Assembly: GCF_034479555.1 (NCBI RefSeq)
Contig: NZ_CP140151.1
Coordinates: 248,001-312,000 of the forward strand
Reading direction: 5' to 3'
Length of the DNA stretch: 64,000 nucleotides
Origin: Chromohalobacter canadensis
Lineage (GTDB): Bacteria; Pseudomonadota; Gammaproteobacteria; Pseudomonadales; Halomonadaceae
Position numbers and translations under genes: made by a program. The notes below the pieces were generated by a model that was given only the letters and a program-made list of their open reading frames with translations, ran no database searches and was not told the DNA's origin. Of this stretch, positions 21,037-32,522 are shown in pieces (the first letter of the stretch is position 1; the number at the start of each line of letters is the position of its first letter).

Positions 21037-22026
21037 TTATCCGCCCGTCATATTCATGAAGCGCACGATGTCGACATCACCGTCCGTGCGGAAATGATGG
21101 CGCTCGGGTTTCAATGGCATGGCCTCGACGATGCGCTGCTTGAGGCGCTCCATATCACCAGGATAACGCCGTAACACCTCGCGTAGATCGACCGAATGCT
21201 CGTTGCCGAGACACAGTAACAAACGCCCTTCCACCGTGACCCTTACCCGGTTACAGGTGTCGCAGAAATTATGGCTGTGCGGTGAAATGAAACCGATACG
21301 CGAATCGCTATCCGGCATACGGAAATAACGCGACGGCCCCAAGGTATTCTCGGTGGTCGGCAACAGCGGATAACGCGATGCGATGGCCTCATGCACGTCA
21401 TCGCTGGAATAAAAGGTTTCTTCACGCGAATGATCGGAGACATCGCCCAGCGGCATTTCCTCGATAAAGCTGATATCCACGCCTTCTTGACGAGCGAAGT
21501 CGACCAAATCGAGAACTTCATCGTCGTTACGCCCCTTGAGCACGACGGCATTGAGCTTGATACGCTCGAACCCAGCATCACGCGCGGCACGAATACCGGC
21601 GATGACATTCTCGAGATTGCCGGTGCGCGTCAAGCTGCGAAAACGCTCGGGGTCGAGGGAATCAATGCTGATATTGAGGCGCTGCATACCGCCTTCCCGC
21701 AATGCCTTGGCATGCTTGACCAATCCCGCGCCATTAGTGGTCATGGCGAAGTCCTTGAGACCCGGAAGCGCGCCGACACGCGACACCAGGTCGTCGATGC
21801 CACGTCGCACTAGCGGCTCACCGCCCGTCAAGCGAATCTTTTCCACGCCTAGCTCGACGAACGCACGCGCTATTTGCTCGATCTCTTCAAGCGTCAGTAT
21901 CTGTGCACGCGGCAGAAACGTCATGTCCTCGCTCATGCAATAGACGCAGCGAAAATCACAGCGATCCGTCACCGAGATACGCACATAGCGAATCTGGCGC
22001 TGAAAGTTGTCGATCAGCTCGGTCAT
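21037..22026 (-). CDS. moaA: GTP 3',8-cyclase (first step of Moco synthesis)
   Basis: 329 residues from the ATG at 22026 (GGAGGAAGC before it). It is a radical SAM enzyme: the N-terminal CDFRCVYC motif binds the SAM cluster, [11 protein letters not shown] follows, and the C-terminal cluster ligands lie in [21 protein letters not shown]. The conserved Gly-Gly tail (NMTGG) that activates the enzyme is present. With MoaC it makes cPMP from GTP. The start overlaps the moaE stop (ATGA), so it is the last gene of the cofactor operon. Confidence 0.96.
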
Positions 22027-22481
22027 GCTTCCTCCCAACGGTCCGCGTCCCGCGCGTCACTGTCACGCGCCGAGACCCAATACGTCCCGCTTGCAGTGTG
22101 TTCTTTCTTCCAGAATGGCGCACGTGTCTTGAGGTAGTCCATAAGAAAATCGCACGCATCGAATGCCGCGCGGCGATGGGCGCTCGCGACCATGACCATG
22201 ACGATGGGGTCACTTGGCGACAAGCGGCCGACACGATGCACGATACGTACCCCATCGAGCGGCCAACGCGACGTCGCCTGCTCGGCAATATCATGAAGCG
22301 CCGCCTCGGTCATGCCGGGGTAATGCTCCAGCGACAGGGCCTGCACATCCGGGCGCTCATTGAAATCGCGCACCAGACCGGTGAAGGTCACCACGGCACC
22401 GATATCGTGACGCCCCGCCAGTAATTGGCGCTGCTCCTCACCCACATCGAAGACCGGCGACTGCACACGCACATCGATCAT
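22023..22481 (-). CDS. moaE: Molybdopterin synthase large subunit
   Basis: 152 residues from the ATG at 22481, preferred over an upstream in-frame start because GAGGAGG lies five bases before it. Family features: [14 protein letters not shown] near 28-41, LEHYPGMTE, the [37 protein letters not shown] block, and the active-site Lys region PFWKKE. It pairs with the MoaD part of the fusion encoded just upstream to sulfurate cPMP to molybdopterin. It overlaps moaA by four bases. Confidence 0.95.
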
Positions 22482-22491
22482 GACGGCCTCC

Positions 22492-23271
22492 TCACCCACC
22501 GGTTACCGGCGGAAAAAACGCCACTTCATCCCCATCGGAGAGCGACGTTTCCTCATGTGCCATGGCATGGTTAACGGCACATAGAATGCGCGCGGCGGAC
22601 AATGCCGCGAAGCGGGGATCCTGTTTCTCAAGCGCGGCCTTGAGACTCGCGACATCGAGGCTTTTCAGCGATGCAACCGGCACCTCTACCTCTTCAACAT
22701 CCAGTCGCTCGCGCAATTCGGCGAGAAACTTGACGCGTATTGCGGCGATTCCGACGGGTGGAGATTCGAAGGCTTCGCGCGTCGCAGATTCATCCTCTGA
22801 GTCGCGATGCCAATCACCGGATTTGCCGCCCGTCTTGTGCTCCAAGCGCACGCCTTCGACCGTCATGTCCTTGTCGACCGCCTTGCACATATCGTAGAGA
22901 GTCAGGCACGCAACCGAGACTGCGGTCAATGCCTCCATTTCCACACCGGTGCGGCCCGCCAGACGGCAGCGTGACTCCACATGCACGCAGGAAGCCGCTT
23001 CATCGAGGCGAAAATCGACACTCACCTTGGACAGCAGCAACGCATGACACAAGGGGATCAGTTCATGCGTGCGCTTGGCGGCCTGAATGCCGGCGATACG
23101 CGCTGTGGCCAGCACATCGCCTTTGGGCAAGCCACCCTCGGCCAGCAAGGCAAGCGTTTCTGGGCGCATAACGATGCGTCCGCTTGCCACGGCCTCGCGC
23201 TGCGTTTCGGCTTTGTCGCCGACATCCACCATGTGGGCTTCACCACGCGCATTGAGATGGGTCAAACTCAT
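22492..23271 (-). CDS. moaCD: MoaC-MoaD fusion: cPMP synthase plus molybdopterin synthase sulfur carrier
   Basis: 259 residues. Residues 1-155 are complete Moa[19 protein letters not shown] (66-83) and the [28 protein letters not shown] core, ending KTGGKSG. A charged linker of about 17 residues follows. Residues 173-259 are complete Moa[27 protein letters not shown], with the Gly-Gly C-terminus that is adenylated and thiocarboxylated. In E. coli these are separate genes. The first base pairs overlap the moeA stop (ATGA) and moaE follows after ten bases, so the fused MoaD is made beside its partner. The free Gly-Gly end means the fusion can still work as a sulfur carrier. Confidence 0.92.
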
Positions 23272-24539
23272 GTCAGGTCACCGAACGGTTGTATCGTCAC
23301 CGGCGCACCCGCCTCGACGGCGGCACATCCGTCACCGATTTCAATAAGGCAATTGGCCACCACCATCGAGCTAAGAATGCCCGACCCCTGACGGCCCGTG
23401 GTACGCACCCAGAGCTGGCCAGCGTCATCCCCGGTATAGATACCGCGATGGAAGTCGACACGTTCCTCGCGGCTTTTCAATGGCTCGGCAGCCAGCGCCG
23501 TGAGACGTGACGGTTGCCAGTCGTGCTCTCCTTGCATGCGTCGTAACATTGGTTGAACGAACTGCAAGAACGTCACCATGACCGCCACGGGATTGCCGGG
23601 CAGTCCAAAGAAAGGCACCATCACGCCACCCGTTTGGTGGATAAGACCGAATGCCAAGGGTCTTCCGGGACGCATGGCGATCCGCCATAACCCCAGCTCG
23701 CCGAGAGCCGTCAGCGCGGGCTTGACCCAATCGGCCTGACCGACCGAGACGCCCCCGCTGGTCACGACCACATCCGCCTCGCGGGCCGCCGTCGCGAGGG
23801 AGGCACGTATGCTGTCCAGATCATCCTGCAGAATGCCAAGATCGATGACCTCGCAGCCCAGACGGCTCAGCAGGCCCTGTAACGAAAAACGGTTGGTATC
23901 GTAAATGCCGGCGGGCGGTAGCGCCTCGCCCGGTGCCGTGACTTCATCGCCGGTGGAAAACACGGCCACGCGTAGCGGGCGAAACACCTCGACCTCAGCA
24001 TACCCCAGCGAGGCCAGCAGCCCCATGTGTTGAGGCCGCAACCGTTTCCCTGCACCCAGCACGCGCTGGCCGCGTGCGATGTCTTCGCCGGCCTGGCGAA
24101 CGTTCTGCCCACGCTGCACCCGCTCGGGATGTTCGACACGGATGCGATCGGGGATGCCAATGTCGACGAGCTGCTCGCTCATGACGACGGTATCTGCGCC
24201 GGCCGGCAGCGGCGCTCCGGTGGTGATCCTCACCGCTTCACCTGGTGCCAGCGATGTCGGTAACCGCATGCCCGCCAGGACATCACCGACCACGTCCACG
24301 CGCAAGTCGTTTCCCGGCACGTCATCCGGCCACGCCAGCGCGATGCCATCCATGGCGGCGTTGGTATTCTGCGGCACGTCGATCGGCGACACGACATCCA
24401 CCGCCAGCACCCCGCCACAGGCCGACGCCAGGCTGACCCGATGCGTGGCGACCGGCGGCGGCGTCATCGCCGACAGGGCCTCGAGCGTCTCATCGACACT
24501 GAGCATGCGCTCGCCCAACTCAAAGCAGGATAAGGTCAT
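23268..24539 (-). CDS. moeA: Molybdopterin molybdenumtransferase
   Basis: 423 residues from the ATG at 24539, which overlaps the mobB stop as ATGA. It inserts molybdate (or tungstate) into adenylated molybdopterin. Features: [16 protein letters not shown] near 55-70, [33 protein letters not shown], the MPT-binding [14 protein letters not shown] and [10 protein letters not shown], and [18 protein letters not shown]. The catalytic-loop Asp residues are present. Its place between mobB and moaCD, plus the tup transporter upstream, ties metal uptake to insertion. Confidence 0.95.
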
Positions 24540-25102
24540 GACGTCTCCCGGGGACCGCGACGCATCTCGGGCCAACGTTGTGGCCAGGCCTGCAGCCAGT
24601 CAACCAAGGCGTCATGATTGTCTAGCGACAAGCGTTCGACACCGGCCGGCAGCGCGATATTGTCGGGAGTCGCCACTGCCCGCACCCAGGGGTCATCGGC
24701 TGCCATCAGCGGCTTTTCCAAGGCCTGGCGATGCAGCTCCAGCTTGGGCAGGGGCCAGGCTTTGAAGCCTTCTACCAAAATCAAATCCGGCGCCAAGGGC
24801 AGGACATGGGGGATCAGCGCCGCGAGATCGGCTTCCTCGCGTTCAGGCGTTTCCATCATCAAGGCAAAACGCTTGCCCGAAGCCACCAGCATCGGCGTCG
24901 CGCCTGCCTGACGCAGACGGTAGCTATCCTTGCCAGGGCGGTCGATGTCGAAGGCGTGATGGGCATGCTTGATCACGGCCACTTGCATCCCCGCATCGGC
25001 TAGCCTGGGCAAAAGTGCCTCGAGCAGTGTCGTCTTGCCGGTCCCGCTCCAGGCGGCGATACCCAGCAGTGGCGTGTCTAGCGCATCAAGCGATAACGTC
25101 AT
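24536..25102 (-). CDS. mobB: Molybdopterin-guanine dinucleotide adapter protein
   Basis: 188 residues. A P-loop GTPase: LGIAAWSGTGKTTLLEALLPRL near residues 13-34, then VAVIKHAHHAFDIDRPGKDSYRLRQAGA, the conserved MobB block, and LILVEGFK. It is thought to assist MobA in forming the guanine dinucleotide cofactor. It starts 145 bases after mobA, a gap that could hold an internal promoter, and overlaps moeA by four bases. Confidence 0.93.
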   Translation of the reverse strand: MTLSLDALDTPLLGIAAWSGTGKTTLLEALLPRLADAGMQVAVIKHAHHAFDIDRPGKDSYRLRQAGATPMLVASGKRFALMMETPEREEADLAALIPHVLPLAPDLILVEGFKAWPLPKLELHRQALEKPLMAADDPWVRAVATPDNIALPAGVERLSLDNHDALVDWLQAWPQRWPEMRRGPRETS

Positions 25103-25247: not shown

Positions 25248-25847
25248 TCAAAACGACCCATCAGAGCGCCAGTGTCGCTCCATAACGTCACGGTCCTCGG
25301 GAGAATTGAGGTTGGCGAACGCCTCGGGCTGATCGGAAAAGTCGACATGACACCAAGGGTGGCGCGCATACCAGCGATCTATCTTGCGCTCGCCATCACG
25401 CAGGGCAGCCCCGAGATCGTTGCGCAGCGTGGTATCGATCAAGGCCACCACGGGATGCGCCCGCTGACCATCGTGCGCGACCGCGATACGCTGCTCGCCG
25501 AGCCCTTGCCGCAAGCGCAGCACCAGATCCGCCGGCAGTGCCGGAGAATCACAAGGCACGAACAGCGCCCATGGCGTGTCCACGGCACATAACGCACTCC
25601 ACATGCCCATGAGCGGCCCGTGATAGCCGGTCTCGCGGTCGCTGATGAGCGGGTATCCCAGCGCACGATAACGCTCAAGGCTGCGATTGGCATTGATCAC
25701 GATGCGACCGACCTGAGGCGCCAGACGGTTCACCACGTGCGCGATCAATGGCTCGCCCGCAAACGACTCCCAGCCTTTATCGCGGCCACCCATGCGACGC
25801 CCTTCTCCTCCCGCCAATACCACGGCGGTTACTTCATCCTCGTGCAT
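25248..25847 (-). CDS. mobA: Molybdenum cofactor guanylyltransferase
   Basis: 199 residues from the ATG at 25847 (in-frame ATGs further up to 25886 are possible). The nucleotidyltransferase signature VTAVVLAGGEGRRMGGRDKGWE is at the N-terminus, with LISDRETGYHGPLMGM and the metal-binding PCDSPALP. It joins GMP to Mo-molybdopterin, making the bis-MGD cofactor of DMSO reductase-type enzymes. This implies the genome encodes such enzymes outside the window. It lies 96 bases downstream of tupC on the same strand. Confidence 0.94.
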   Translation of the reverse strand: MHEDEVTAVVLAGGEGRRMGGRDKGWESFAGEPLIAHVVNRLAPQVGRIVINANRSLERYRALGYPLISDRETGYHGPLMGMWSALCAVDTPWALFVPCDSPALPADLVLRLRQGLGEQRIAVAHDGQRAHPVVALIDTTLRNDLGAALRDGERKIDRWYARHPWCHVDFSDQPEAFANLNSPEDRDVMERHWRSDGSF

Positions 25848-25943
25848 GCCTATCGCTCCCGCGCTGGGTATCACTTCCACCATCATACGCGGCTTCGATG
25901 CACACGCCGAGCCACTTACCCAATGCGTGCGACAATGACCGAA

Positions 25944-26615
25944 TCACACCGCCACTACTCCCTGCTTGAAGGCACTTACCTGTAGGCATCGTTGTGCAAG
26001 GCACCAGTACTCGTCACAGCGCTCGGTCAACACGCTAGGTTGATGAGCACTGAGTACGATGGCACAGCCCGCTTCATGCAGCGACGAGATCAAGGTACTG
26101 ACATCAGCAATCGCCTGACGGTCCAGGCTGGCGGTGGGCTCATCGAGCAGCAACACGCGTGGCGACAACAGCCAGGCCCGTGCCAACGCCAAGCGCATGC
26201 GCTCACCGCCAGACAGCGACCGGGCCCTCTGTTCTGCATGTGCGTCCAAGCCACAGCGTTCCAGCATCGCCGCCACGCGATCGCGTGCCATGTCCCCGCG
26301 CCAACCATGCCAACGAGCAACATAGCGCAGATTACCGGCGACACTGGTATCGAAGAGATAGGGCTGTTGGTGAAGGTAGAGCACGCGCCCGGGGCATGGC
26401 GGCGAGGCGGCAGGCATCGCACCCGCCAATGTCCAGCGTATGGTGCCTTGACGGGGCGCCTCCAACCCCGCCAGAAGACGCAGCAATGTCGTCTTGCCAC
26501 TGCCATTATCGCCACGCAAGTGCACCAGCGAGCGCCCCTGCCAATGCAAATGGGGGATTTCCCATAGCGCCGGCTGGCGGTCGAAACCATGGGCAAGCTG
26601 GCTCACCTCGAGCAT
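25944..26615 (-). CDS. tupC: Tungstate/molybdate-type ABC transporter, ATP-binding protein
   Basis: 223 residues from the ATG at 26615, chosen because GAGAGGG is six bases upstream (an ATG at 26621 abuts it). Walker A is GDNGSGKTTLLR, the signature is LSGGERMRLALARAW, Walker B is RVLLLDEPTASLD and the switch His is in LSAHQPS. It energises the TupB permease. The C-terminal regulatory domain typical of ModC is absent, fitting the Tup type. It is 29 bases downstream of tupB. Confidence 0.87.
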   Translation of the reverse strand: MLEVSQLAHGFDRQPALWEIPHLHWQGRSLVHLRGDNGSGKTTLLRLLAGLEAPRQGTIRWTLAGAMPAASPPCPGRVLYLHQQPYLFDTSVAGNLRYVARWHGWRGDMARDRVAAMLERCGLDAHAEQRARSLSGGERMRLALARAWLLSPRVLLLDEPTASLDRQAIADVSTLISSLHEAGCAIVLSAHQPSVLTERCDEYWCLAQRCLQVSAFKQGVVAV

Positions 26616-26644
26616 GAACATCCCTCTCGATGGACGATACGCAA

Positions 26645-27352
26645 TCAGACGCTCACGGTTTGATGGCCGCGTCCGCGCATTACGCCCAGTAGTACATTGA
26701 GCACCAACGCCAGCAGCAACAGTACGAGCCCTAGGGCCAGTCCCTGAGCGAACTCACCCTTGAGCGTTTCCAGGGCGATCGCCGTGGTGATGGTGCGCGT
26801 GAAATGCTCGATATTGCCCCCGATCATCACCGCGCTACCGACCTCGGCAATGATGCGTCCGAACGCGGCCAGCACGGCAGCAATGACCCCGAAGCGGGCT
26901 TCGCGGAGCAACACCCACAGAGATTGCCACCATCCGGCGCCTAATTGCCGTGCCGTTTCCCAGGCACGCTGATCGATGCTTTGCAGCGTGCTGTGCAACA
27001 TCGCGGTCAATACCGGCATCGCCAGTAGGATCTGACCGAGGATCATGGCGCGTTGAGTGAACAGCAGACGCAACTCCCCCAGCGGGCCGCTACGCGACAG
27101 CAGCATGAACAGCACCAACCCCACCACCACGGTCGGCACGGCCATGAACGTATTGACCAGCGATATCGCGAACCAGCGCCCCGGAAAGGCAACACGCGCC
27201 AGCAGCAAAGCAATCAACAACGAAGGCGGCAAAGCCACGAGTATCGCCGTCAGCGAGACCCGAAACGAGACGCCGATGATTTCCCACAAGGCTGGATCGA
27301 GGGAAAGCAGCAGGTACAACGCCTCCCTCGTCGTATTCATGAGCTCGTGCAT
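26645..27352 (-). CDS. tupB: Tungstate-type ABC transporter, permease
   Basis: 235 residues from the ATG at 27352 (GTGGAGG is correctly spaced; a GTG at 27364 would include that site). About six transmembrane helices and the inner-membrane component loop ETARQLGAGWWQSLWVLLREARFGVIAAVLAAFGRIIAEVG, the EAA motif that contacts TupC. FMAVPTVVVGLVLFMLLSRSGPLG is typical of the TupB branch as opposed to ModB. It starts 15 bases after the tupA stop. Confidence 0.87.
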   Translation of the reverse strand: MHELMNTTREALYLLLSLDPALWEIIGVSFRVSLTAILVALPPSLLIALLLARVAFPGRWFAISLVNTFMAVPTVVVGLVLFMLLSRSGPLGELRLLFTQRAMILGQILLAMPVLTAMLHSTLQSIDQRAWETARQLGAGWWQSLWVLLREARFGVIAAVLAAFGRIIAEVGSAVMIGGNIEHFTRTITTAIALETLKGEFAQGLALGLVLLLLALVLNVLLGVMRGRGHQTVSV

Positions 27353-27367
27353 CGACGCCTCCACACG

Positions 27368-28216
27368 TCAGTCACTTTCATGGACAGCGCTCGTAGGATC
27401 GACTTTCTCACCGGCGCTGGCATGGAACAAGGCCTTGTCATTGAGCCGGAAAGCGTCGATCAGGTCTTGCCCTTCATCGGAAATCAGCCACTCGGCCAAG
27501 GCCCGCGCGCCCTGCGTATTGAGGCCGTCATAGCGCTCGGGGTTGACCAGGATGACCTGATACGGGTTGAACAACCCAGTATCGCCTTCGACCATGATCT
27601 TGAGATCGAGCTTATCCTTCATTGCCAGCCAAGTGCCGCGGTCCGTCAGCGTATAGCCTTGCAGTTCGCTAGCCATTTTCAGCACCTCCCCCATGCCTTG
27701 CCCTGCAGCGCGAAAGCCCTCGAAATCAGGCGTTACGCCCGCCTCTTCCCAGAGATGCTTTTCTTTCTTGTCGGTGCCGGAGTCATCGCCACGCGAAATG
27801 AACGTCGCGCCCTGACCAGCCAGTGTCGCAAACGCACTAGTGGCATCATCACCGCCATCGATCCCGGCGGGATCGCCAGACGGCCCCACAATCACGAAAT
27901 CGTTGTACATCACACCATGTGGTTCGACGCCGTAATCGGCATCGACGAAGGCCTTCTCCGCAGCGGGCGCGTGCGTCAACACCAAGTCGACATCGCCGTC
28001 ACGCCCAAGGCGTAGCGCCTTGCCGGTACCTACGGGGATGACCTGGATCTGATAGGGGTGGTCTTCTTCGAACTTGGGCAACAGGTAATCGAGCAACCCG
28101 GAATTATAGGTGCTGGTAGTAGTGGCCAAACGAACGGTATCGGCCGCCTGCGCCCCGGATACCAACAGAAACGATAGCGCCAGGGTGGCGAACAGCGAGA
28201 GACGGCGTGTCAACAT
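27368..28216 (-). CDS. tupA: Tungstate-type ABC transporter, periplasmic binding protein
   Basis: 282 residues with a signal peptide (cleavage near ASGAQA-ADTV... region, residues 20-25). The mature start VRLATTTSTYNSGLLDYLLPKFE contains TTTS, the oxyanion-binding signature of TupA that differs from ModA. ATFISRGDDSGTDKKEKHLW gives the second half of the pocket. Tungstate is the preferred ligand in studied TupA proteins; molybdate cannot be excluded. It is the first gene of the tup-mob-moe-moa run, with GAGGGG before the ATG and a sigma-54 type element upstream. Confidence 0.9.
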   Translation of the reverse strand: MLTRRLSLFATLALSFLLVSGAQAADTVRLATTTSTYNSGLLDYLLPKFEEDHPYQIQVIPVGTGKALRLGRDGDVDLVLTHAPAAEKAFVDADYGVEPHGVMYNDFVIVGPSGDPAGIDGGDDATSAFATLAGQGATFISRGDDSGTDKKEKHLWEEAGVTPDFEGFRAAGQGMGEVLKMASELQGYTLTDRGTWLAMKDKLDLKIMVEGDTGLFNPYQVILVNPERYDGLNTQGARALAEWLISDEGQDLIDAFRLNDKALFHASAGEKVDPTSAVHESD

Positions 28217-28262
28217 GGGAACCCCTCATTATTGTCGAGTTTTGAACGTGCCCGACTCTCCT

Positions 28263-28278
28263 TGCAATTGGCATGCCT
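28263..28278 (-). promoter_or_regulatory. Sigma-54 (RpoN) type promoter of the tup-moa operon
   Basis: On the minus strand AGGCATGCCAATTGCA has GG and GC exactly ten bases apart and the full TTGCA -12 block. Against the consensus TGGCACG-N4-TTGCA only two bases differ. Transcription would start near 28252, about 36 bases before the tupA ATG. A sigma-54-dependent activator gene is divergent 200 bases away. Confidence 0.75.
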
Positions 28279-28384
28279 GACGTGACCACGCGGCCAAAAA
28301 CGGTGACAATTGCCGGATTGCATCGCGCCTTTTACCATGAAAATAATCTAGGTGCGCAACGAATGTAACAAATTGACCCAATGA

Positions 28385-28401
28385 CGGGACACTATGTCCC
28401 G
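28385..28401. promoter_or_regulatory. Perfect 17-bp palindrome, candidate activator site of the divergent response regulator
   Basis: CGGGACA-CTA-TGTCCCG is a perfect 7-bp inverted repeat. Its centre is about 140 bases upstream of the predicted tupA start, a usual distance for NtrC-type enhancer sites, and 29 bases before the regulator ATG at 28422, where it could also mediate autoregulation. Confidence 0.65.
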
Positions 28402-28421
28402 CCACTCAGGGAACGTCGCTC

Positions 28422-29783
28422 ATGACCGCATCCACCGAACTGCCAACCGCCTCAGTGTTGATCGTCGATGACGAGCCCGGCATGCGCAGCTATCTAGCCA
28501 AGGCTTTGGCATCGCGCTTCGCGCTGGTCGAGGTCGCCGACTCACTCAGCGCCGCGGAAGCCTTGCGTCAGCGGCTGCACTTCGACCTGCTGTTGGTCGA
28601 TATCCGCCTGCCAGACCGCTCGGGCATCGAATGGCACGAGGCGCTCGGTCCCGAACGGCGCAGCGATATCATCTTCATGACCGCCTACGCCGACCTCGAC
28701 ATGGCGGTCAAGGCACTGCGCGCCGGGGCCAGCGACTTCATCATCAAGCCGTTTCGTCTCGAGCAGTTGCAAAGCGCCGTCGACCGTTGCCTGGCCCAGC
28801 GTCGCTTAGCGCGCGAGAATTTCGTGCTCAAGCGCGAGACTCAGCGCCTGCACCGCCCCGACGAAAGCATGATCGGGGATAGCCACGCCATGGCTCAGGT
28901 CAGAACGATCACCGAGCGCGTCGCACCGACCCCCTCGGCCGTCTTGATCCATGGCGAATCGGGCACCGGCAAGGAACTCGTGGCGCGCGACCTGCACCGC
29001 CTCTCAGGGCGATTCGGCGCCTTCGTGCCCCTCAATTGCGGCGCCATCGCCGGCGACCTGCTGGAATCGGAGCTCTTCGGTCACGTCAAGGGCGCCTTCA
29101 CCGGCGCGGTCAAGGCCCGCGAAGGGCTGTTCACCTATGCCGATGGCGGCACGTTGTTCCTCGATGAAATCGCCGAGATGCCGTTGGCAATGCAGGCCAA
29201 GCTGCTGCGCGTGCTCGAAAGCAAGCGCATTCGCCCGGTGGGCAGCGAGCAAGAGCAGCCCGTGGATGTGCGTATCCTCGCCGCCACCCACCGCAACCTG
29301 CAGCACGAGGTCAGCGAGGGGCGTTTCCGCGAGGATCTCTATTTTCGCCTCAACGTTCTCACCTTGACGCTCCCCGCGTTGCGCGAACACCCTGAAGACA
29401 TACCGGCCTTGGCCCACCATTTCTCGCGACAGCTGTCTCGCGACCTGGGGCTCGCCGCCCTGCCCTGGCAGCATGCCGACCTTGAGCGTCTGACGCATTA
29501 CCCTTGGCCCGGCAATATCCGCGAGCTCAAGAATTTCATCGAACGCTGTATTCTCCTCGGCCAACTCCCGAGCGACATGCTCGATGAGACGACTACCGCG
29601 CCCAGTGCCGTTGCCACGCATGGCTACCCCAGCGACTGGTCGCTGGAAGCCGTCGAGCGTGCGCATATATTGGGTGTACTCGAATCCCACGGTCATAATA
29701 AATCCAGCGCCGCCCGCGCGTTGGGCGTATCGCGCAAGACCCTCGACCGCAAGCTCAATGCCTGGCAAGACCTGAACGCATGA
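28422..29783 (+). CDS. Sigma-54-dependent response regulator (NtrC family)
   Basis: 453 residues. The receiver domain (1-125) has VDDE, the phosphoacceptor Asp60 in [10 protein letters not shown], and FIIKPF. The AAA+ domain (about 150-375) has Walker [16 protein letters not shown], the sigma-54 contact loop GAFTGA at 224-229 and Walker [14 protein letters not shown] Fis-type HTH lies at the C-terminus ([20 protein letters not shown]). It activates RpoN promoters by ATP hydrolysis. It overlaps the kinase gene by four bases. The only sigma-54-like promoter I see nearby is that of tupA, making the tup-moa operon the likely target. Confidence 0.92.
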
Positions 29784-31876
29784 GAGCCCTACGCCGCTGG
29801 TTGCGCGCCTCGATTCGACGCCGGCTGTTGTGGCTCGCTTTCGCCCCCCTGGCCTTGCTGATACTTGCTCTGGCGGGACTCACTGCGTATTGGACCTCGA
29901 CATACAACGACCGCCAGCTGTACATGAAAGTGCGTGCCGACTTGGCCGTCGCCTCGCGCGTGCTGGACGGCGTGAGCCAGCAACAGCAAGCGCGTCTCGA
30001 AGAATTGGCGCGCAGCCACGCGCTCGCCTCGGCACTGCAGGGCGAAGGATCTCAGTCACTCGAGGCACTGCTCGACGAAACGCAAAACGCGATGCAACTG
30101 GACTGGCTGCGCGTGGTGCCGCTCGAGGCGCTGAACGAGCCCCCTGAATTGCAACGCCGATTGCAGGCGACAGGCGATACACAGGGCGTATCCGGCCTGG
30201 ATGTGCTCGAGGCATCCCAGCTCGAGATGCTGGCCCCCGAACTGGCCCGACGGGCACGCCTGCCACTGCGTGACACACCGCAGGCAGCTCCCAGCGATCG
30301 TCGACGCGAAACACGTGGCATGGTCTTGCGCACCCTCTACCCCATCCATGATGAACAAGGAAACCTGCGTCTTCTCCTTGATGGCGGTCGCTTGCTCAAC
30401 GGCGATGCCGAGCCCGTGGATGAGATTCGTGACCTGGTCTACGGCCCGGGGACGCTCCCCGAAGGCAGCACCGGCAGCGTCACCTTGTTTCTCGATGACG
30501 TGCGCATCGCCACCAATGTACGCCTGGCCAACGGCGAGCGCGCCCTCGGCACGCGTGTCTCCGAGCCCGTTAGTCGCCAGGTTCTAGGGCGCGGCGAGCG
30601 CTTCATCGACAACGCCTTTGTGGTCAGTGGTTGGTACGTCGCCGCCTACGCCCCGCTCGAGTCACTGACCGGTCAACGCATCGGCATGATCTACGCCGGT
30701 TTCCCCCTGGCACCATATGAAGCCCTCTACCGAGACACACTGCTGCAGGTCGGCGCCGTCTTACTCGTCATCATCCTGATCTCAGGCTTGATGGTGATTC
30801 GCGGCGTCGACGCACTCGCCAGTCCGGTGCGCCGGATGCATCGCGTGATACACGGCATCCGCGATGGCCGGCACTTACGTATCGGCCATCTCGACAGCCA
30901 GGACGAACTGGCCGAACTAGCACATGAATTCGATGCCATGCTCGACCGTCTGGACGCCCATCAGGATGCCTTGCAACGTGCGGCCCAAACCCTCGAGCGG
31001 CGCGTCGAAACCCGCACCCAGTCACTGACCGAGAAAACACGTGCACTCGAGGAGCATGTCGCCTTGCTCAAGCAGGCTCGCGCCAGCCTGATGACCCAGG
31101 AAAAGCTCGCCGCCCTGGGCGAGATGACCGCCGGTATCGCGCATGAAATCAACAATCCCGCCGCCGTGATCCTCGGCCACGTGGAGTTACTGGCCGATAA
31201 CCTTGGCTCCGATGTCGCCCCCGTACGCGACGAAGTCGACACTATCATCGCCCAGGTCGAGCGTATTCGTGCGCTGATAGACAACCTGCTGCAGTACTCC
31301 CGTGCCGGCGGTCATGAGCCCGCCTTCGTCCCCGAAGACATCAACACCATCGCCGCCGGCACCGAGCTCTTGATCCGACACGCCCTCGACAAGCACGGCC
31401 ATCGCCTGATCAGTTCGCTACACGCCACCAGGCGCGCCGAGTGCCACCGCGGTCAATTGCAACAGGTGCTGATCAACGTGTTGCTCAATGCCACCCAAGC
31501 CAGCACCTCCCCGATGAGCATTCATCTGGCGACACGCGACGCCGTGCGCGAGATTCCCGGACATGGGCTCCTCGACGGCGTGGAAATTCGCGTCGCCGAT
31601 CGAGGACCAGGCATTCCGCCCGAACTACGCGACCGGATTTTCGACCCGTTCTTCACCACGCGCGAAGCGGGCTCCGGGCTTGGGCTGGCCATCAGCGCGG
31701 GCATCGTACGACGAAGCGGCGGCGAGATGTGGGCCGTTTCGGCGCGCGGTCGCGGCACGATCTTCCACGTCTGGCTCCCCTGCCGGGCATTCCCCAGCGG
31801 CGCCGAGGAAGCCACCACGCGCAAACTGATCGCGTCGCTCAGCGACATGACCTCACCTTCCTCACGTGGCGGTTAA
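29780..31876 (+). CDS. Sensor histidine kinase with a periplasmic sensing domain
   Basis: 698 residues. A first transmembrane helix (about 18-40) is followed by a 290-residue extracytoplasmic double Cache-like domain, a second helix near 325-345 (VGAVLLVIILISGLMVI), HAMP, a coiled coil, HisKA with the phospho-His at 455 (GEMTAGIAHEINNPAAV) and a HATPase (NTIAAG, DRGPGIPPELRDRIFDPFFTTREAGSGLGLAIS). This matches kinases paired with NtrC-type regulators. The ligand is unknown; from the divergent tup genes, an oxyanion or a signal of cofactor need is possible. It may be co-transcribed with the regulator. Confidence 0.92.
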   Translation: MRALRRWLRASIRRRLLWLAFAPLALLILALAGLTAYWTSTYNDRQLYMKVRADLAVASRVLDGVSQQQQARLEELARSHALASALQGEGSQSLEALLDETQNAMQLDWLRVVPLEALNEPPELQRRLQATGDTQGVSGLDVLEASQLEMLAPELARRARLPLRDTPQAAPSDRRRETRGMVLRTLYPIHDEQGNLRLLLDGGRLLNGDAEPVDEIRDLVYGPGTLPEGSTGSVTLFLDDVRIATNVRLANGERALGTRVSEPVSRQVLGRGERFIDNAFVVSGWYVAAYAPLESLTGQRIGMIYAGFPLAPYEALYRDTLLQVGAVLLVIILISGLMVIRGVDALASPVRRMHRVIHGIRDGRHLRIGHLDSQDELAELAHEFDAMLDRLDAHQDALQRAAQTLERRVETRTQSLTEKTRALEEHVALLKQARASLMTQEKLAALGEMTAGIAHEINNPAAVILGHVELLADNLGSDVAPVRDEVDTIIAQVERIRALIDNLLQYSRAGGHEPAFVPEDINTIAAGTELLIRHALDKHGHRLISSLHATRRAECHRGQLQQVLINVLLNATQASTSPMSIHLATRDAVREIPGHGLLDGVEIRVADRGPGIPPELRDRIFDPFFTTREAGSGLGLAISAGIVRRSGGEMWAVSARGRGTIFHVWLPCRAFPSGAEEATTRKLIASLSDMTSPSSRGG

Positions 31877-31934
31877 GATCGCCGCGCCGAGGCGCTATCA
31901 TGACCCGATAACGTCTTATCACAAAGGATCATTC

Positions 31935-32522
31935 ATGAGCGGATTCGACGTCGGCGCACGTCTCAAGCAATTGCGCAAGCTGCGCGACTTATCGCAACGC
32001 GAGCTGGCGAAACGTGCCGGCGTGACCAACAGCACGATTTCACTCATCGAGCAGAATAGCGTGAGTCCTTCGGTGAGCTCGCTGAAGAAGATCCTCGACG
32101 CCATGCCGGTCTCGATCAGCGAATTCTTCGCCGGTGAGGAAACCAGCCCTCAAGAGAAGTTCTTCTATCGTGCCGAGGAACTCACCGAAATCGGCGACGG
32201 CAACCTATCCTGGCGCCTGGTCGCCGCGCGACATCCTAGCCGTGGCATGTCGATCATCCATGAGCACTATCCACCAGGCGCAGATACCGGCGAAGACATG
32301 CTCGAACACGAGGGCGAGGAAGGTGGTGTCGTCATTAACGGGATGATAGAGCTCACCGTCAATGGCGACACGCAATGCCTTCATGCGGGCGACGCTTACT
32401 ATTTCGATTCGCGCCTGCCGCATCGCTTTCGCAACAGCGGCGACACGGACTGCGTCATCGTCAGCGCCAACACCCCGCCAGGCTTCTCAGAGGGTGGCGC
32501 GAGCACGCACCATCGCCGCTAG
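31935..32522 (+). CDS. XRE-family regulator with cupin domain (PuuR/PauR-like)
   Basis: 195 residues from the ATG at 31935 (AAAGGA before it). The HTH_3 domain covers 1-65 (LSQRELAKRAGVTNSTISLIEQNSVSPSVSSLKKIL). A C-terminal cupin (about 110-185) has GEEGGVVINGMIELTVNG and DSRLPHRFRNSG. The pattern matches E. coli PuuR and Pseudomonas PauR, repressors of polyamine catabolism. No polyamine genes are near, so its target is elsewhere or it senses another small molecule. It lies 58 bases after the kinase gene and converges on uraA. Confidence 0.83.
   Translation: MSGFDVGARLKQLRKLRDLSQRELAKRAGVTNSTISLIEQNSVSPSVSSLKKILDAMPVSISEFFAGEETSPQEKFFYRAEELTEIGDGNLSWRLVAARHPSRGMSIIHEHYPPGADTGEDMLEHEGEEGGVVINGMIELTVNGDTQCLHAGDAYYFDSRLPHRFRNSGDTDCVIVSANTPPGFSEGGASTHHRR

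Follow-up and report, generated by a model that had tools for sequence, protein, structure and literature searches.

The tupA-regulator locus and its conservation

Within a 64,000-nucleotide stretch of the Chromohalobacter canadensis genome (the window; the whole genome is a single contig of 3.6 Mb), a 205-bp intergenic region (28217-28421) separates two divergent sets of genes: a predicted tungstate uptake and molybdenum cofactor (Moco) operon that begins with tupA (ATG at 28216, - strand), and a response regulator gene (ATG at 28422, + strand) followed by a histidine kinase gene. The intergenic region carries a sigma-54-type -24/-12 promoter element of the tup-Moco operon, AGGCATGCCAATTGCA (28263-28278, - strand), and two unstranded palindromic dyads: the main one, CGGGACACTATGTCCCG (28385-28401), which is the proposed binding site of the regulator, and a weaker one, TGTAACAAATTGACCCA (28364-28380). 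The regulator (28422-29783, + strand, 453 amino acids) has a receiver, an AAA+ domain with a GAFTGA motif at residue 224 and a Fis-type helix-turn-helix (HTH; PF00072, PF00158 and PF02954, all above the Pfam cut-off), and its solved relatives are, by name, the NtrC family and ZraR. Judged by this sequence evidence it is a member of the NtrC-family sigma-54 response regulators, and its activation would depend on phosphorylation. The membrane kinase (29780-31876, + strand, 698 amino acids) overlaps the regulator gene by 4 bp and is composed of a periplasmic Cache sensor, HAMP, HisKA (H455) and HATPase domains (Pfam). This domain plan of regulator and kinase is shared with ZraSR, AtoSC and NtrBC, although the pair has a different type of sensor and different target genes. 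Among the 25 NCBIfam matches listed for each protein, none reached its cut-off.

The divergent operon, all on the - strand, starts with tupA (27368-28216), which encodes a putative periplasmic tungstate-binding protein with a TTTS motif (in LATTTSTYNSG) and solved relatives 3muq, 3lr1 and 5my5. It is followed by tupB (26645-27364), a permease by Pfam, and tupC (25944-26621), an ATPase recognized by its ABC_tran domain and place in the operon. TupA and TupB fall below the cut-offs of their NCBIfam models (219.6 bits against an equivalog cut-off of 400, and 181.2 against 320, respectively), and tungstate rather than molybdate is the likely substrate of the predicted transporter. The cofactor genes are mobA (25248-25886, MobA-like NTP transferase domain), mobB (24536-25102) and moeA (23268-24575), the latter two assigned by Pfam scan, a moaC-moaD fusion (22492-23271, MoaC and ThiS/MoaD-type domains in a single open reading frame (ORF) by Pfam), a putative moaE (22023-22499) and a putative moaA (21037-22038), the final gene of the operon examined. 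The moaCD fusion protein aligns over its full length in most relatives examined. We take the ORF after it to be moaE, largely by position, and it adjoins moaCD and moaA in relatives too; the last ORF, whose place at the operon end is also kept in relatives, is presumably moaA. No Moco riboswitch matched Rfam at gathering thresholds between 20000 and 34000.

A search of 151 genomes of the family with the kinase recovered it at 45% identity or more in 30 genomes from five genera (nine of g1, seven of g19, six each of g6 and g4, and two of g2), and identity to named Chromohalobacter records was 88-94%. In all 30 the regulator is divergent to tupA, and tup, mob and moe genes then follow as far as the stretches reach. 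Thus, the divergent sigma-54 activator and kinase described in the first-pass annotation of this DNA are kept together in five genera. Four loci of a further genus, g20 (L064-L067), encode a kinase relative of 38-40% identity with no tup alongside. The 3' end of the kinase gene is overlapped by a gene for a regulator with Cro/C1-HTH and cupin domains (31866-32522, + strand), which adjoins the kinase in g1 loci, in most g19 loci and, with partial alignment, in g6 loci.

Promoter and palindromic dyads before tupA

The -24/-12 element reads from 28278 down to 28263 as GG-N10-GC with a full TTGCA block, as the first-pass annotation had it, and matches 10 of 12 consensus positions; by eye, the +1 of tupA would lie at about 28252. 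Alone it is weak evidence, since 12 sites matching at least 10 of 12 positions occur on the two strands of the 64-kb window, the tupA site included. These background matches are what speaks for promoter and palindrome both being chance features without function. However, a GG-N10-GC element with 9-11 of 12 matches is present on the tupA strand in each of 30 tupA-regulator intergenic regions (the window and 29 loci from 29 other genomes, in five genera), and it is this conservation, not the single-sequence match, that carries the case. Together with the motif controls and the loci outside the family presented below, it makes the chance explanation extremely improbable. A sigma-54-type promoter before tupA is therefore supported, and the single rpoN-type gene matched in the genome would supply the factor on which it is predicted to depend.

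The main dyad, CGGGACA-CTA-TGTCCCG, is a perfect 7-3-7 palindrome centered at 28393, about 141 bp upstream of the predicted start (in agreement with the roughly 140 bp first estimated), with 116 bp between its center and the -24 element. The second dyad had been overlooked; its center lies 21 bp from that of the main dyad and 95 bp from the -24 element, and its motif score of 14.1 is the second best in the window. Both distances suit upstream enhancers of a sigma-54 promoter, for which about 100-200 bp is expected. A Gibbs search for a 17-bp palindrome, run on 18 of the 30 regions, returned YGGGWCA-N3-TGWCCCR de novo, and in the window this motif is the palindrome noted before. The best of ten starts reached 326 bits (the next three 269, 248 and 237), compared to 182-196 bits for six mononucleotide shuffles, each represented by the better of two starts. 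Three of the 18 Gibbs sites, all from g6 (L050, L059 and L060), were poor and were dropped, and the remaining 15 went into a score matrix. Scanning with it recovered a second dyad 21 bp off in Chromohalobacter and about 30 bp off in five of the six g4 loci, and the best dyad reached at least 12 bits in 24 of the 30 loci.

These 24 loci, for which 14 representatives stand (L050 and L058-L062 being left out), bear on which gene the dyads serve. In 13 of the 14, the motif center is 94-132 bp away from the -24 element of tupA (293 bp in the remaining one), whereas the distance to the regulator start ranges over 30-422 bp. This is the opposite of a palindrome conserved only with the regulator gene, the pattern that the first-pass annotation had named as telling against control of tup. 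It also bears on the idea that the regulator-kinase pair controls its own expression through the dyads, with tupA expressed independently of them. In its favor, the main dyad of Chromohalobacter ends 20 bp before the regulator ATG and possibly lies inside the leader; however, the variable regulator distance and the occurrence of the motif at a second operon with no adjacent regulator gene (see below) leave it quite improbable as the sole role. Autoregulation could still occur in addition to control of tupA. By eye, a possible regulator promoter (TTGCCG-17-TACCAT, then ATGAAAA; 28310-28338, + strand) is visible, with similar sequences in g1 and several g19 loci; a promoter scanner found no sigma-70 promoter for the regulator. 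If real, this promoter would place both dyads in the regulator leader, from which they could also autoregulate.

The assignment of the dyads to tupA has two weak points: six loci (one from g2 and five of the six from g6) have no dyad of 12 bits or more, and the distance to the -24 element is 272 and 293 bp in L043 and L044. A motif-like palindrome, GGGGACA-N3-TGTCCCA, also occurs near the end of the regulator gene in three g4 genomes (L293:3443, L294:2755 and L295:2707) and may be a coding coincidence; a sigma-54-like site matching 10 of 12 positions lies 169 bp beyond it, before the kinase.

The formate dehydrogenase operon and other loci

CGGGACA-N3-TGTCCCG has one exact match in the 3.6-Mb genome, and at up to two mismatches its 18 matches are barely above the 14 of a reversed control. 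Defining a regulon by motif alone was attempted and set aside: at up to two mismatches, YGGGWCANNNTGWCCCR occurs at 151 places compared to 122 for the reversed control, which is little usable enrichment. At up to one mismatch, 12 places match this motif besides the tup site. One of the 12, at genome position 93662, lies within a formate dehydrogenase (FDH) region ordered fdhD, DUF3305, DUF3306, a ferredoxin-like gene, torD, fdhA, a presumed fdhB, fdhC, a moaB-like gene and a presumed second moeA (these two named largely by position). The dyad at this site, TGCGTCAACTTGACCCA, spans the DUF3306 stop codon, and no regulator gene is adjacent to it. Of 36 genomes searched, 30 had readable fdhD loci, and 12 of these (9/9 Chromohalobacter and three g19) have a dyad of at least 17 bits within 1.5 kb.

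Of the 30 genomes with the regulator, 11 (six g19, two g6, two g4 and one g1) were then compared over the stretch from DUF3305 to the ferredoxin-like gene. Each of the 11 has a GG-N10-GC element 86-87 bp downstream of its best dyad; the offset had been noticed earlier, and six of the 11 loci were new in this test. In two loci without the regulator (G124 and G088), no dyad in the FDH stretch reaches 8 bits. The FDH elements match just 6-8 of 12 consensus positions, and the dyad scores below 12 bits in two of the 11 loci. In g4, fdhD is on the same contig as the kinase and within about 10 kb of it in five of six genomes, with fdhA farther away or on another contig. In one g4 genome (G044), a dyad scoring 20.6 bits, TGGGACAAAATGTCCCA, is found some 350 bp from fdhD (L291:7533). 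A further sigma-54-like site, AGGCACGCGGCTTGCT, precedes DUF3305 in our genome (L254:4578, + strand; 11/12) and is kept in nine Chromohalobacter and two g19 loci, and in variant form in six g6 loci. An equivalent matching at least 9 of 12 positions was found neither near fdhD in other g19 loci nor at the same place in the g2 and g4 loci read, and no dyad was seen beside it. It may act as a further promoter within the FDH region.

Across the 151 family genomes, tupA (any type, E 1e-3) and fdhA of the FDH operon (E 1e-200) are both present in 79 and both absent in 71; one genome has tup only and none has fdhA only. The corresponding Fisher value of 5e-43 overstates independence because the genomes are related. 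The single tup-only genome (G038; loci L178 and L307) keeps the tup-Moco operon, has no regulator or kinase alongside and no fdhA in the genome, and upstream of its tupA shows no dyad (best score 3.5) and a single GG-N10-GC element of 8/12. Somewhat at odds with this joint loss, it retains a 16-bit dyad-like match near the fdhD region (L307:2842). A distant tupA (47% identity or less) is present in 49 of the 80 tupA genomes, and the 12 such loci that were read have the order tupB-tupC-tupA and no such regulator-kinase pair alongside. Thus, FDH can exist without this switch.

To look beyond the family, 369 genomes were drawn from the class, our own included, and a kinase relative (E 1e-60 or better) was found in 20 others. 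In eight of the 20, tup or mob genes lie beside the pair (L234, L235, L239, L241, L243, L248 and L253, with mobA only in L247). In L249, fdhABC and fdhD are divergent to the regulator, and the stretch read contains no tup; fdhD is also close by in L235, L237, L239, L240 and L253. Among 80 further kinase search loci, L068-L070 were duplicates of genomes already included, L071, L072 and L079 were taken further, and most of the others were tblastn matches to the kinase core alone. Twenty-four loci that extended far enough upstream, none used in building the matrix (18 of the 20 class loci, the four g20 loci, L072 and L079), were scanned for a dyad of at least 12 bits that has, 50-200 bp from it on the divergent strand, a sigma-54 site matching at least 10/12. 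This combination is present in eight of the 24 and never arose in 100 dinucleotide shuffles of all 24; the thresholds were chosen after the loci had been inspected. L249 has a dyad and an 11/12 site before its FDH operon. In L253, where the tup genes have another order (tupBCA), the operon is preceded by a 10/12 site and two dyads spaced 31 bp apart. On the negative side, neither tup nor mob nor a close fdhABC appears in the stretch read for 15 of the 24, several of which are on short contigs. Linkage of the pair, a sigma-54-type promoter and a dyad to tup or mob in other gammaproteobacterial families is supported.

These patterns also bear on whether the -24/-12 site, although real, serves some other enhancer-binding protein while the adjacent pair controls other genes. 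Sigma-54 sites do not specify their activator; however, promoter, dyad and pair are jointly absent in G038 and jointly recurrent outside the family, and we consider a different activator about as improbable as pure autoregulation, or marginally more so. Recurrence in 30 of 30 family loci, the spacing of the de novo motif and the eight of 24 loci from outside the matrix together make a sigma-54 two-component circuit for the Tup and Moco genes well supported by comparative evidence. This part of the first-pass proposal is supported; tungstate or molybdate limitation as the primary signal is not.

The kinase sensor and a proposed formate-linked regulon

The best matches of the kinase sensor, by both sequence and fold, are the formate-bound chemoreceptor domains 8py0 and 8py1. 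R242, T245 and T258 of the kinase align to these two domains with spacings of 3 and 13, as in PacF (which was not itself aligned), and the pattern is kept in 14/14 and in 49/54 kinases. In PacF, R142, T145 and T158 are reported to affect formate binding (Monteagudo-Cascales 2025, as relayed in citing text). The Cache fold and the R-x2-T-x12-T pattern are thus shared with the formate chemoreceptors PacF, McpF and Atu0526 and with 8py0 and 8py1, but those receptors serve chemotaxis, whereas here the Cache domain is part of a histidine kinase. The kinase is a probable formate sensor. Given the sensor match, the Arg/Thr pattern and the dyads before the FDH operon, the signal of the circuit is probably not a metal.

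The alternative is that the kinase senses a shortage of tungstate or molybdate, perhaps via TupA, and that the regulator then induces uptake and cofactor genes. Divergent linkage to tupABC and the Moco genes in all 30 family loci would fit this, as would the failure to find ModE by its TOBE domain, which is also missing from the regulator and kinase. Three ORFs of 369-383 amino acids in the genome do match TOBE; all are ABC ATPase-like (two named by NCBIfam, one by sequence only), and one is ModC, beside ModB. As these TOBE proteins appear to be transporter ATPases, molybdate probably uses a separate transporter. Metal limitation as the primary signal is unlikely: the sensor is nearest to formate-bound domains and retains their residue pattern, a second set of dyads is found at the FDH operon, and in L249, where the stretch read contains no tup, a pair of the same type faces away from an FDH operon.

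We therefore favor formate as the signal, and consider it likely that the intergenic region acts as a control region within a formate-linked, sigma-54-dependent two-component regulon that covers the tup-Moco and FDH operons. Periplasmic formate would bind the Cache domain of the kinase (29780-31876), which would phosphorylate the regulator (28422-29783). The regulator would bind the tandem dyads (28364-28401) and act as an activator rather than a repressor, with DNA looping allowing RNA polymerase-sigma-54 to form the open complex at 28263-28278 and to switch on tupABC-mobA-mobB-moeA-moaCD-moaE-moaA. From its separate dyads, the same regulator would activate the FDH operon (the ferredoxin-like gene, torD, fdhABC, the moaB-like gene and the second moeA). 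Substrate sensing would in this way feed forward to enzyme, metal and cofactor. All of the evidence comes from sequence, which shows the dyads at both operons with their conservation and spacing, the linkage to tup and fdh and the similarity of the sensor; the formate ligand, phosphotransfer, DNA binding, dependence on RpoN and activation are inferred. We lean, a little less firmly, toward the broader proposal that a gammaproteobacterial formate-sensing two-component system co-induces FDH and a metal uptake and cofactor pathway via sigma-54, so that substrate, not metal, sets tungsten acquisition.

A formate switch of this kind has a precedent in FhlA of Escherichia coli, a formate-responsive sigma-54 activator that turns on formate dehydrogenase genes. 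FhlA is a single-protein formate sensor with N-terminal GAF domains; it binds formate itself via its N-terminal portion and has no receiver. Sigma-54, formate and formate dehydrogenase would be common to both, but the present system combines a periplasmic Cache kinase with a receiver-domain regulator, has an fdhABC-type enzyme and includes metal uptake and Moco synthesis. The regulator is not an FhlA: it carries a receiver, Pfam gives no GAF domain for it, and its match to the FhlA model of NCBIfam (PRK15429) is far below the cut-off. The proposed circuit would thus be an FhlA-like formate switch in two-component form that couples metal and cofactor supply to FDH. In the open-licence literature, the titles and abstract openings among the matches listed did not mention control of tup by a two-component system or by sigma-54, either for tup itself or for tup together with formate dehydrogenase.

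Uptake of molybdenum and tungsten in bacteria is usually thought to be set by the intracellular metal or cofactor. If the proposal is true, a trace-metal transporter and a cofactor pathway would instead be under the substrate of the enzyme that they serve, via a periplasmic sensor, and such substrate-led control would fit the joint retention or loss of tupA and fdhA in 150 of 151 family genomes. It would offer a direct way of testing whether aerobic, salt-tolerant bacteria use tungsten, and a concrete signal for a kinase whose listed source names say no more than sensor or Cache-domain histidine kinase. The motif could be used to seek formate-induced genes in many genomes, and the components are possible parts for formate biosensors.

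Among regulators of these metals, ModE controls molybdate and tungstate uptake genes and carries TOBE domains. To our knowledge, neither ModE nor TupR is a two-component sigma-54 system, although both resemble the pair proposed here in regulating tungstate and molybdate uptake. TupR of Desulfovibrio vulgaris regulates such genes according to PMC10102598, which cites Rajeev 2019. Beside fdhD in our genome, and as the same neighbor in many relatives, lies a protein with HTH_17 and PBP_like domains (L254:2678-3601, - strand; genome position about 90.7-91.6 kb), which is possibly a TupR-like metal- or cofactor-sensing regulator.
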